In this document: positions 1,230 through 54,477 of the stretch, one piece after another
Numbering within the stretch: the first letter of the stretch is position 1
Layout of the letters: every line of letters starts with the position of its first letter
Source: an uncultured Spirochaetaceae bacterium
GTDB lineage: Bacteria > Spirochaetota > Spirochaetia > Sphaerochaetales > Sphaerochaetaceae
Assembly: GCA_944389975.1 (NCBI GenBank)
Contig: CALXOH010000008.1
Span: 1-64,000, forward strand
DNA: 64,000 nt
Direction: 5' to 3'
The notes under the pieces: model-generated
Database searches by the model: none
Told to the model about the DNA's origin: nothing
Seen by the model: the letters and a program-made list of their open reading frames with translations, nothing else
Translations under genes and position numbers: made by a program

Positions 1230-2363
1230 TCATCTCCACACTGTAGAGGATGGAGTCCTCTTGCCGATTCTCAGATAGAACAGCGGATGCTTATGTGCAG
1301 ACAGTTCCATTGCAGCAAACGTTTCATACAAAGATCCAAGATTTATGGATCTTACATCACCTGAAACAGCATTTATGTTTGTTCCGAAGAGAACTGCAGA
1401 AAGAAGCCCTACATCGTTCAAATACAGCTTGATAAGATTCTTTGAAGAAATCTCAAGCAAAGGAAACACGGGATTTGATACAGCATGAACACCCAGCGCC
1501 ACGCCCGATGCGGTAAGATAGTCGAATTCCTCCATATATCTATCAGACCGGGCACTCTTGGGATTGATATTCTTGTAAATCACCCTTTTCTTTTTCTGTT
1601 CCATGAAGGATGGAAGCAGATTATATACCCTCATTATCTGCAGCCGATGCTCACTATCATATTTGGCACAGTCAGAAGCATAGAATCCCCTTATCTCAGA
1701 TTGGAGGGCACGTATTGATGCAATATCCATACCTTCGATATATGAACGTACAACTTCCGGTAGCCCACCTATGACAAGGTACATCCTCAATTGCTTCATT
1801 ATAGCTTCGTGAACATTACCATCCACGCTACTCTTTTCCTCATGGCATTTCCTGAGAAATGAAATTATATCCTCACCCACACCATTTGCCCAAAGAAATT
1901 CCTCAAAATCAAGCGGATAAAGCCTTTCGATCATTATCGATCCCATGGGAATGGAACTTGTTCTTGACAATTCCACGTCAAGAGCAGATCCGGAACCAAT
2001 ATATCGGTATTTTCCTTTCATATTGATGAATTTGAGAAGAGGAAGCAGGTTTGGATATTCTTGTATCTCGTCAAGGAATATCATCGTATTTTCCTTGCCA
2101 GCCATGGTCAAAGGACCCGAAACAAGGCTGATGGCAATATCGAATTTCTCTACGGTATCGACATCAGCGAAAATGCGAGTTCCAAGCCTGTCTTCAAAAA
2201 GGTTGATCTCCACGAAATTCTTAAAATTCCTACCAGCGGTTTCTCTTATGATGAATGATTTTCCCGTTTGCCTTGCCCCATCCAGAAGCATTATCTTTCC
2301 CGGATCATTCATATAATAGTCTTCAAGAACAGTTTCAACCTTTCTTTTCAGTCTGATGCTCAT
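1230..2363 (-). pseudogene. AAA ATPase with DUF4143 domain, 3'-truncated by the TnpB element
   Basis: Walker A GARQTGKS lies about 25 residues in; Walker B is the MIFLDEIQEYP stretch, and the 'GSGSALDVELS' segment matches the family's sensor region. The C-terminal half looks like DUF4143. The reading frame ends HPLFYLR then an unrelated tail of about 12 residues to a stop at 1230. The intact relative at 53098 continues for about 60 residues beyond the equivalent point (its NEVEFLIDNG nuclease-like motif), so the end is missing here. The TnpB element begins immediately after, which explains the truncation. I chose ATG 2363 (MSIRLKRK) because it matches the usual family N-terminus; an upstream ATG at 2414 would place repeat copies inside the coding region. 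The role of these ATPases is not established. The gene is probably non-functional. Confidence 0.8.
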
Positions 2364-2380
2364 GATTTCATGGTATTGCA

Positions 2381-2456
2381 TTTCAAAATATTGAAAAGTG
2401 TTAAATTTATTCATTTTTCAATATTGCAAAGTGTTATTCAAATACAGTTTTCAATA
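2381..2456 (-). repeat. 33-bp-period motif array before the truncated ATPase
   Basis: Read on the gene strand, AACACTTTKCAATATT occurs twice. The AATATTG cores start at 2387 and 2420, exactly 33 bp apart. A third, partial copy (TTTTCAATA, core at 2453) keeps the same spacing. The core CAATATTG is itself a palindrome. The copies span the start region of the ATPase gene. The same 33-bp period, with other motifs, flanks the ATPase at 53098 and the small ORF near 60.8 kb. It may be an operator array; the binding protein is unknown. Confidence 0.65.
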
Positions 2457-52357: not shown

Positions 52358-52921
52358 ATGAAAAAGATCATCATTGCACTCTTTGTTTTCGCTTTGGCAA
52401 TTACTCCTGTCTTCGCATCGGATCCTGACGTAAGCCTCATGGGAGGGATCGGAGGAAGCATCGGGTCACAAGGCAATGCAATGCCGACTACGGGAGCACA
52501 GAATGAGTTCGGCATCACGATTTCAAAGTCAACCCAGGTAAGACTCAACCTCACAGCAGAGTCAGACGTCTTCTTTGACAAAAACAACGGACTATACGTG
52601 AATGCAGGTTTCTATCTTGCAGGAAGCCAGGTTTCCGGAAAGCTTGGAGCAGGTTATGCACTGCGCTGTCCGATCTCGAATTCCTCCGTTGATTTCATCT
52701 TCACAGTCGGCCCATACCTCTCGTTTGCAAGAATCTGCAGCTTCGGAGCTTATCTTGCAACCGATTTCCAGTGGAACTTCCACCAGTCATGGTTCCTTCG
52801 CTTCGGAATGGGCATGACCATGGACATCTTCCAGTTCGGCGGGAACATCAACGGTGTATCCACAGAACAATTCTATGTGGACTTCGCAATCCCGCACCTT
52901 GCAGTCGGATACGAGTTCTGA
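52358..52921 (+). CDS. Small secreted beta-barrel-like outer membrane protein
   Basis: A 187-residue protein with a clear signal peptide (MKKIIIALFVFALAITPVFA, cleavage before SDPD). The mature part is built of alternating strands with many Gly and aromatic residues (GLYVNAGFYLAGSQVSGKLGAGYAL-type segments) and ends HLAVGYEF, with the terminal aromatic that outer-membrane barrels use for insertion. About eight strands are likely. No specific family is recognised. AAGGAG lies eight bases before the ATG and a strong terminator follows, so it is a single, well-expressed gene. Presence of such a protein supports a diderm host. Confidence 0.75.
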   Translation: MKKIIIALFVFALAITPVFASDPDVSLMGGIGGSIGSQGNAMPTTGAQNEFGITISKSTQVRLNLTAESDVFFDKNNGLYVNAGFYLAGSQVSGKLGAGYALRCPISNSSVDFIFTVGPYLSFARICSFGAYLATDFQWNFHQSWFLRFGMGMTMDIFQFGGNINGVSTEQFYVDFAIPHLAVGYEF

Positions 52922-52933
52922 TAGTTCCATTCT

Positions 52934-52965
52934 ATGGCCGCACGAATCAGTGTGGCCATATTTTT
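52934..52965 (+). terminator. Intrinsic terminator after the outer membrane protein gene
   Basis: ATGGCCGCAC / GTGTGGCCAT form a 10-bp stem (one G-U) with loop GAATCA, followed by ATTTTTG. Confidence 0.9.
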
Positions 52966-52974
52966 GTCTCTATT

Positions 52975-53055
52975 CCCCTAGAAAAATGCTGTATATAGCG
53001 GATTATTCCCCTAGAAAAATGCTGTATCTAACTGATTATTCCCCTAGATTTTTAC
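52975..53055 (+). repeat. Upstream 33-bp-period array of the DUF4143 ATPase (3 units)
   Basis: CCCCTAG begins at 52975, 53008 and 53041, exactly 33 bp apart. The first two units share CCCCTAGAAAAATGCTGTAT; the third reads CCCCTAGATTTTTACGC. The 13-mer CCTAGATTTTTAC of the third unit (53043-53055) recurs inverted at the gene's end. The array occupies the whole promoter region. Confidence 0.85.
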
Positions 53056-53097
53056 GCTGCTTTAATACTAATATTCTATATACAAAGGAAATAGAGA

Positions 53098-54426
53098 ATG
53101 AAACGATTTCTGATGGATGAACTTATCAAATGGAAAAACAACAGACAAAGGAAACCTTTGATACTGCAAGGAGGCAGGCAAGTAGGCAAAACTTGGCTTT
53201 TGAAAGAGTTTGCCAGAAATGAATACAAGAATTCTTGTTACCTTCTATTCGATCAAAACAAGCAACTTGCCAAGATATTCAGCAACCCGTCAGACGTGTC
53301 ATTCATCATCAGATCATTGGCTGCAATATATGGGAACATAGGTAAGCCCGATGAAACGTTGTTTATCTTCGATGAGATACAAGCCTGCCCGGAAGCGATG
53401 ACTAGCTTGAAATACTTTCACGAACTTGCACCCGAATACAACATAGTGGCAGCTGGTTCGCTGTTAGGGATATCGGAACATAGCGATTATGCATTCCCTG
53501 TCGGGAAAGTAGACTTCTTCACGCTATACCCTCTCACCTTCATGGAATTCCTTCTCGCAATGGGAAAGGATGGCATTGCAAAAGCAATATCGGAAGAGGA
53601 TCACGAATTACTTGAAGTATTCAGACAAGAAATGGATTTACTTCTGAACCAATACATCTATGTGGGAGGAATGCCGGAAGTCGTCCAAGCATTTGCAGAT
53701 AGCAAAGGATTGGATTACAAAACTGCAAGAAAGATACAAGACAGCATTCTGAAATCATATGACTTGGATTTCTCGAAACATATCAAGAGCGAAATTGACA
53801 GGAAACGGACGGAAGCCGTATGGAATGCAATCCCGAGGCAGCTTGCAAAAGAGAACAAGAAATTCATATTCTCCGCCATCAAGGGAAGTCGTAGAGCTTC
53901 CGACTACGAAAATGCATTGCAATGGCTGAAAAACGCAGGATTGATATATCAAATACCTTTGCTCAGAACTCAAAAGATTCCAACTTCCGTGTATGAAGAA
54001 AAGTCGATCTTCAAGATCTATATGATAGATATCGGACTGCTTGGTGCAAAAGCAGGATTGAATCACAATGCAATAATTTCCGGATCCACGCTGTTCGTGG
54101 AATTCAAAGGGGCTTTGGCAGAACAATACACTTGTCAGGAACTTGTAGCGGAGGGAGAATTTGGAATTCATTATTATGCAAATGAGAACAGCTCGAACGA
54201 AGTGGAGTTCTTGATCGACAACGGCCTTGAGATTATCCCAGTGGAAATCAAATCAGGGATAAACGTAAAAGCCAAGAGTCTCAAAGCCTATATGGAAAAA
54301 TTCCATCCGAAGCTTTCGTTCCGTGTATCCCGGAAAGGATACGAAGAACAAGACAACCTCATCAATTTGCCCTTAGCTGAAATATCAAATATTGGCAACA
54401 TCGTGAAAAGAAAGGTAAAAATCTAG
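53098..54426 (+). CDS. AAA ATPase with DUF4143 domain, intact
   Basis: A 442-residue protein. Walker A is QGGRQVGKTWLLKEF (about residue 25), Walker B TLFIFDEIQACPEAM, sensor region VAAGSLLGISEH. The DUF4143 part (about 200-440) ends with a PD-(D/E)xK-like pattern: FGIHYYANENSSNEVEFLIDNGLEIIPVEIKSG. This large family is common in anaerobes, often near mobile elements, and has no settled function. AAAGGA precedes ATG 53098. Short motifs repeated with a 33-bp period lie on both sides, in opposite orientation, one copy including the stop codon. The gene is a full-length relative of the truncated one at 1230, though not a close copy. Confidence 0.88.
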   Translation: MKRFLMDELIKWKNNRQRKPLILQGGRQVGKTWLLKEFARNEYKNSCYLLFDQNKQLAKIFSNPSDVSFIIRSLAAIYGNIGKPDETLFIFDEIQACPEAMTSLKYFHELAPEYNIVAAGSLLGISEHSDYAFPVGKVDFFTLYPLTFMEFLLAMGKDGIAKAISEEDHELLEVFRQEMDLLLNQYIYVGGMPEVVQAFADSKGLDYKTARKIQDSILKSYDLDFSKHIKSEIDRKRTEAVWNAIPRQLAKENKKFIFSAIKGSRRASDYENALQWLKNAGLIYQIPLLRTQKIPTSVYEEKSIFKIYMIDIGLLGAKAGLNHNAIISGSTLFVEFKGALAEQYTCQELVAEGEFGIHYYANENSSNEVEFLIDNGLEIIPVEIKSGINVKAKSLKAYMEKFHPKLSFRVSRKGYEEQDNLINLPLAEISNIGNIVKRKVKI

Positions 54427-54477
54427 GATTGTGCCATTTTAAAGCATTTAAAAATCTAGGATTGTGTTATTTTAATA
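54415..54477 (-). repeat. Downstream inverted 33-bp-period array of the DUF4143 ATPase (2 units)
   Basis: AAAAATCTAGGATTGTG occurs at 54417 and 54450, 33 bp apart, followed in each unit by a similar ATTTTAA stretch. Reverse-complemented, the first copy gives CCTAGATTTTTAC, a 13-bp match to upstream unit three. The ATPase TAG stop lies inside the first copy. Confidence 0.85.

Follow-up and report, generated by a model that had tools for sequence, protein, structure and literature searches.

An array of direct repeats with a period of 32-33 bp is located upstream of the gene for an ATPase-nuclease of the PDC-S01 family. The array, its period, its position and its linkage to the gene recur across phyla, the cores of its units being conserved and the spacers divergent, and paralogues of one genome possess private motifs. 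This array is likely to be a promoter operator of the ATPase-nuclease, and we predict that it is bound by the ATPase itself.

The ATPase-nuclease gene and its upstream array

The gene is located at positions 53098..54426 (+ strand) of the window, i.e. the whole 64,000-nucleotide stretch of DNA that was analysed. It encodes a protein of 442 aa comprising an AAA_14 ATPase domain (residues 18-152), a winged-helix-like region and a DUF4143 PD-(D/E)XK part (residues 224-387). The first-pass annotation had named it a DUF4143 ATPase gene, which was confirmed by Pfam scores far over the cut-offs (AAA_14, 90.1 bits for a cut-off of 27; DUF4143, 100.7 bits for 28.1). Seven PDC-S01 models of PADLOC were matched, the best one with 533.8 bits over residues 1-432 (E 7e-161), which places the gene in the same protein family as this DUF4143/COG1373-type ATPase. 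Judged by these profiles, the product is an AAA_14/DUF4143 ATPase-nuclease, the phage-defence candidate PDC-S01 of PADLOC.

The AlphaFold2 model of the protein was obtained with a pLDDT of 94 and a pTM of 0.92. No match was found by a PDB sequence search with the window protein; matches were given by a fold search. For residues 1-320, the nearest folds were the archaeal ATPases SSO1545 (2FNA, Z 15.8) and PABY2304 (2QEN, Z 16.9), aligned over 268-270 residues, followed by CED-4/NLR proteins (CED-4 and RPP1 at Z 14) and Orc1/Cdc6. The match with 2FNA and 2QEN ends before the C-terminal PD-(D/E)XK part. The CED-4 and RPP1 matches may reflect an NTPase and winged-helix fold in common with STAND/NLR-like ATPases. 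Among 82 homologues, the Walker A and Walker B motifs are conserved, as are the PD-(D/E)XK residues: E342 and K385 are invariant, E383 is found in 81 of the 82 and D370 in 77. In the other five (the window protein, its 72% ortholog L078 and three further homologues), residue 370 is E, replacing the catalytic D.

The upstream array consists of three units on the + strand, all beginning with TATTCCCCTAGA, at 52971, 53004 and 53037 (spacing 33 + 33). Unit 1 (52971..53003) is composed of TATTCCCCTAGAAAAATGCTG and a spacer, unit 2 (53004..53036) is 91% identical to unit 1 over 33 bp, and unit 3 (53037..53056; TATTCCCCTAGATTTTTACG) is the closest of the three to the promoter. The alignment of the units reproduced the 33-bp period of the CCCCTAG motifs that had been noticed at 52975, 53008 and 53041, and the measured spacing upheld its reading as three helical turns. 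In unit 3, a T5 tract replaces the A5 tract, and the same change occurs in units of L078. This array is the top-scoring one of the window in Tandem Repeats Finder (score 135, period 33, 52971-53048). Upstream of 48 other window genes, an equal score at lag 32/33 was never obtained, and dinucleotide shuffles matched it in at most 0.1% of cases. The upstream array is not explained by chance.

The array is followed by an A+T-rich stretch (53057..53097, + strand) which, as read from the sequence, presumably contains the -10 region and an AAAGGA ribosome-binding site; a consensus scan of its + strand revealed no strong sigma-70 match. No terminal inverted repeats were found, and the initial view that the structure is neither the terminal repeat of an IS nor an ordinary promoter still stands.

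In G013, where the neighbours are orthologous, the porin-like gene adjoins pyrC without an ATPase gene between them, so that the stretch from the array to ~54478 was either inserted in the window or lost in G013. Its left boundary is the intrinsic terminator of the preceding porin-like gene (52358-52921), which a scan placed at 52933..52960 (+ strand; an 11-pair stem, then TTTTTGTC). The DNA shared by the window and L078 begins inside the array and stops at the end of the gene, nothing beyond being common. An RNA leader or riboswitch was considered and dropped, because no Rfam family was matched in the leader and the RNA fold of the window array was not better than that of shuffles (z +1.0).

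Distribution of the arrays among homologues

The 300 bp upstream of the gene were tested in homologues from 48 same-genus genomes, in 80 loci of a GTDB-wide scan seeded by an alignment of eight closer sequences, and in seven plasmid or phage records. A region was counted as positive when its ungapped self-alignment score reached at least 13 at lag 32-34. The comparison of homologues with other places, proposed when the array was first noticed, bore out the periodicity: 130 of the 174 upstream regions were positive, against 0/159 control regions at ~-1000 to -700 and 0/160 at +700 to +1000. At the same lags, 3/176 regions within the gene were positive, as were 4/172 immediately 3' of it and 0.1% of dinucleotide shuffles. 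By lag, 33 was found in 90 genes, 32 in 50, 34 in 2 and 64-66 together in 66, any other lag being limited to at most 3. About one quarter of the homologues had no array at the score threshold.

Positives belonged to records of at least 11 phyla (Bacillota, Bacteroidota, Pseudomonadota, Spirochaetota, Cyanobacteriota (Melainabacteria), Elusimicrobiota, Actinomycetota, Chlorobiota, Chloroflexota, Verrucomicrobiota and Chlamydiota), the names being those of the records, many of which are MAG contigs, so that single assignments may be wrong. They also included plasmids and a faecal phage contig. Lag 32/33 was detected on complete plasmids of Acinetobacter towneri, Vibrio coralliilyticus, Criblamydia sequanensis, Collinsella aerofaciens and Segatella hominis, and a Parabacteroides distasonis plasmid, which encodes WP_005868811.1 and has its array at locus L308, was positive at lag 66. 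No conserved neighbour or partner gene emerged, the biggest neighbour cluster covering 5 of the 80 loci; at these loci, the ATPase is the sole constant gene near the array.

Anatomy of the arrays and clade-specific period

Among 124 arrays, 48 contain two units, 65 three, nine four and two six. The six near-identical units of a Succinivibrio dextrinosolvens locus (L223) form, with the other six-unit array, the largest arrays seen. Each unit has a core of ~18 bp. When fitted by EM with one register per gene, the cores had in common the half AAAA(A)RTGT, in most cases in one orientation towards the gene, and adjoining it was a second, gene-specific half-site. Between related genes (60-97% protein identity), the cores were 62% identical and the spacers 43%, as measured on units other than those that set the register.

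The arrays sit just upstream of the promoter or overlap it, with the last core at ~-80 to -20 bp relative to the start codon, depending on the gene. By eye, several genes are apparently leaderless, the -10 box directly preceding the ATG, and at L197 the last unit apparently includes the -35 box (TTGTAA, 17 bp, TATACT; read from the sequence). The distance between the -10 box and the last unit displayed small peaks at 13, 25, 36-38 and 46 nt, which is suggestive of phasing. A palindromic operator as a general feature was discarded, since dyads were on average at the level of shuffles; single loci (L310, L313 and L224) have a palindromic look.

In the clade of L059 (~405 aa; loci L275-L288), arrays of 22-23 bp were present in 11/11 members at >=42% identity that had a readable upstream region, with cores such as GGAAAATTTAAAAT and up to five units (L277). 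The period thus amounts to two turns in the L059 clade, compared with three (32-33 bp) in the window's clade. No arrays were shown at more distant DUF4143 proteins. Repeats were seen at L065 and L300 (31-32 bp) and at L069 (74 bp), and further DUF4143 subfamilies may carry arrays of other periods. The distinction between 32 and 33 bp was tried as a subclade marker and abandoned: it changes 25 times on the tree, so that the period flips easily between these two values.

The array as a proposed operator

We consider autoregulation by the ATPase itself to be likely, in line with the multimeric protein, possibly the ATPase, that the first-pass annotation had suggested. Two to four asymmetric sites of ~18 bp would share one helical face at intervals of three turns (two in the sister clade), overlapping the -35 region or preceding it, and an oligomeric AAA/winged-helix ATPase would bind these copies cooperatively. 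The most likely outcome would be repression of its own gene, by which the nuclease-bearing ATPase would be kept scarce until needed. As paralogues are numerous (the host genome has 22 DUF4143 matches), a private half-site would insulate each one from the others, and gene and array would travel together as a self-contained cassette. Binding by the ATPase, cooperativity, repression in preference to activation and a role in defence are what we infer.

The ATPase appears as the best candidate for the binding protein: it is the only constant gene nearby, the motifs of paralogues differ, and motif similarity tracks protein similarity. The Mantel rho was 0.25 (null sd 0.034, null maximum 0.11), a signal confounded by phylogeny, to which common descent contributes. 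Its partial peak was found at residues 116-140, which is not clearly the winged helix. Furthermore, the ATPase fold includes a winged-helix part and has DNA-binding Orc1/Cdc6 proteins among its further matches. The distance of the array from the start codon is not constant (last unit at ~-80 to -20), so that repression is not the sole reading; arrays without a gene, described below, count against an operator, as do the general lack of palindromic sites and the quarter of homologues in which no array reached the threshold.

Alternative explanations

In a tentative alternative, the array would be the functional element of the defence and would hold the ATPase as an inert, helically ordered multimer; invader DNA or proteins would displace this multimer, and the nuclease would be freed and the gene derepressed. 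If this were true, the private site would set the trigger of each paralogue, and the many copies per genome would constitute a repertoire.

It is doubtful that the array marks the end of a mobile unit or serves as its landing site; the ATPase-nuclease would then insert or excise its own gene through recognition of arrays, and arrays lacking the gene would be empty sites or scars. The orthologous gap that is empty in G013 and the rampant transfer between phyla speak for it, as do the arrays on both sides of the gene in the window and at L067. In the window, the downstream array occupies 54416..54475 (+ strand) and overlaps the stop codon (54424-54426); its two units of TAAAAATCTAGGATTGTG, at 54416 and 54449, reproduce the 33-bp spacing initially noted. 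Also present is the 13-mer in opposite orientation (53043-53055 and 54415-54427, spanning the stop codon), which extends to 21 nt at 86% identity. This inversion is explained by the palindromic CTAG together with an A5/T5 tract that can flip within the gene's own motif, as seen in unit 3 versus units 1 and 2 and in L078. The downstream motif, AAAAATCTAGGATTGTG, recurs without inversion in the upstream arrays at L157, L162 and L166, which makes a remnant of a second family member more likely. The downstream array of the window is thus probably left over from another member of the family.

The bracketing of the gene by inverted arrays, put forward in the first-pass annotation, does not hold as a rule, since a downstream array was present in just 4/172 homologues. 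At L067, the sole other case checked closely, it has the same orientation as the upstream array and is not inverted. Among the loci scanned, L067 was also the only one with its own motif beyond the upstream array. There (G000:C50), a second copy of 49 bp of its own array follows the gene, 98% identical and likewise oriented (2848-2896, L004 numbering). An insertion sequence with terminal inverted repeats does not fit this direct copy and the scarcity of downstream arrays. The absence of target duplications and terminal inverted repeats, and the near-restriction of own-motif copies to L067, likewise argue against a mobile unit. Loading on both sides of the gene, looping and arrays as the ends of a mobile unit were therefore not borne out, the upstream-only array being the rule.

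Arrays without a gene, another point in favour of mobility, were searched with two motif patterns across 48 genomes. Arrays of TTGCTTTTTCGTG were found in 9 genomes and those of TCTAGGATTGTG in 8; in 3/9 and 5/8, respectively, one was not upstream of a family gene, the downstream array of the window being included in these counts. Solo arrays, bearing a family motif without an adjacent family gene, occur at L168 (1467-1546), L174 (1501-1546), L175 (456-501), L184, L187, L188 and L190. Their cores are near-perfect and their flanking genes unrelated; the one at L184 adjoins an apparent tRNA gene. At L190, a C-terminal gene remnant lies within 150 bp after the array (E 1e-6), so that at least this array is the relic of a deleted gene, which counts against a mobile unit. 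No such remnant was found next to the solo arrays at L168, L174, L175, L184, L187 and L188.

It is also unlikely that another regulator, such as a host, phage or nucleoid protein, binds the arrays and the ATPase does not. Such a protein could account for the AAAA(A)RTGT half common to most arrays across phyla, and binding by the ATPase is itself a prediction. However, paralogues of one genome have private motifs. In the host genome, 5/5 members of the window gene's clade possess their own upstream 33-bp array, each with a different motif (TTGCTTTTTCGTG for L004/L067, ATTCGTGCCTAAAATTTGCA for L002/L062 and a AATTATTT-rich unit for L003/L072, among others), and a single host regulator cannot read all five. 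Moreover, genes transferred to Acinetobacter, Vibrio, Criblamydia, Collinsella and Bacteroidota have retained the array, and no conserved neighbour gene is available to encode the regulator.

In iteron-regulated initiators and in archaeal Orc1/Cdc6 with ORB, a winged-helix protein recognizes direct repeats, often of ~22 bp, beside its own gene. The PDC-S01 arrays are alike in outline, with repeats of 22-33 bp by the gene, a protein combining AAA and winged helix, and Orc1/Cdc6 among its fold matches. Loading of the ATPase at its own gene in order to open or replicate DNA, in the manner of Orc1/Cdc6 or a plasmid initiator, is nevertheless very improbable. Unlike those systems, PDC-S01 has a nuclease domain, private motifs and up to dozens of copies dispersed over the chromosome, and neither an unwinding element nor replication partners were seen: conserved neighbours are lacking and the recurrent neighbours at 80 loci include no replication genes.

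Finally, chance or a functionless recent tandem duplication of promoter DNA, to which slippage and the near-identical units of L223 might point, deserves practically no credence, being contradicted by the empty control regions and by a period of 32-33 held over at least 11 phyla while the spacers, not the cores, diverge.

Relation to known systems

Autoregulators with helically phased operators likewise have repeated sites at whole-turn spacing on their own promoter. The proposed PDC-S01 operator differs from the general case in that the regulated protein is an ATPase-nuclease and the operators vary among paralogues of the same genome.

PDC-S01 has been described as a single gene in which an ATPase is fused to PD-(D/E)XK, with ~29,500 bacterial and 10,000 archaeal copies, ranking fourth among the commonest prokaryotic 'defence' systems; experimental validation is pending for most such candidates (PMC12988326), and a published demonstration of antiviral activity was not found for this family. 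No other single locus is as frequent in rumen genomes (PMC13356809). No cis array is mentioned in the published passages surveyed, and the window gene has one. A description of the arrays was not found in the searchable literature, which covers few subscription papers. Thus, the protein family is known, and the predicted phased private operators appear to be new.

The private phased array that precedes the gene in about three of four homologues examined provides a first concrete handle on the mechanism of PDC-S01. Each array is the predicted DNA ligand of its PDC-S01 copy, by which autoregulation becomes directly testable, and the differing half-sites constitute a natural data set for a recognition code. 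In addition, the array can serve as a marker by which copies are found, whether intact or decayed. A more general question is how dozens of paralogous ATPase-nucleases per cell separate their control circuits.

A second family member in the window

The window contains a second DUF4143/AAA_14 gene (~1230..2363, - strand), whose C-terminus is truncated. Directly upstream of it, an array of ~2-3 units (2387..2456, - strand) was detected by Tandem Repeats Finder as the second tandem repeat with a 33-bp period in the window. A TnpB-like reading frame (800-1230, - strand) adjoins the truncated C-terminus and may have inserted into the gene. Upstream of this ATPase gene, two small genes (2530-2900, - strand) resemble a DUF4160/DUF2442 toxin-antitoxin-type pair.
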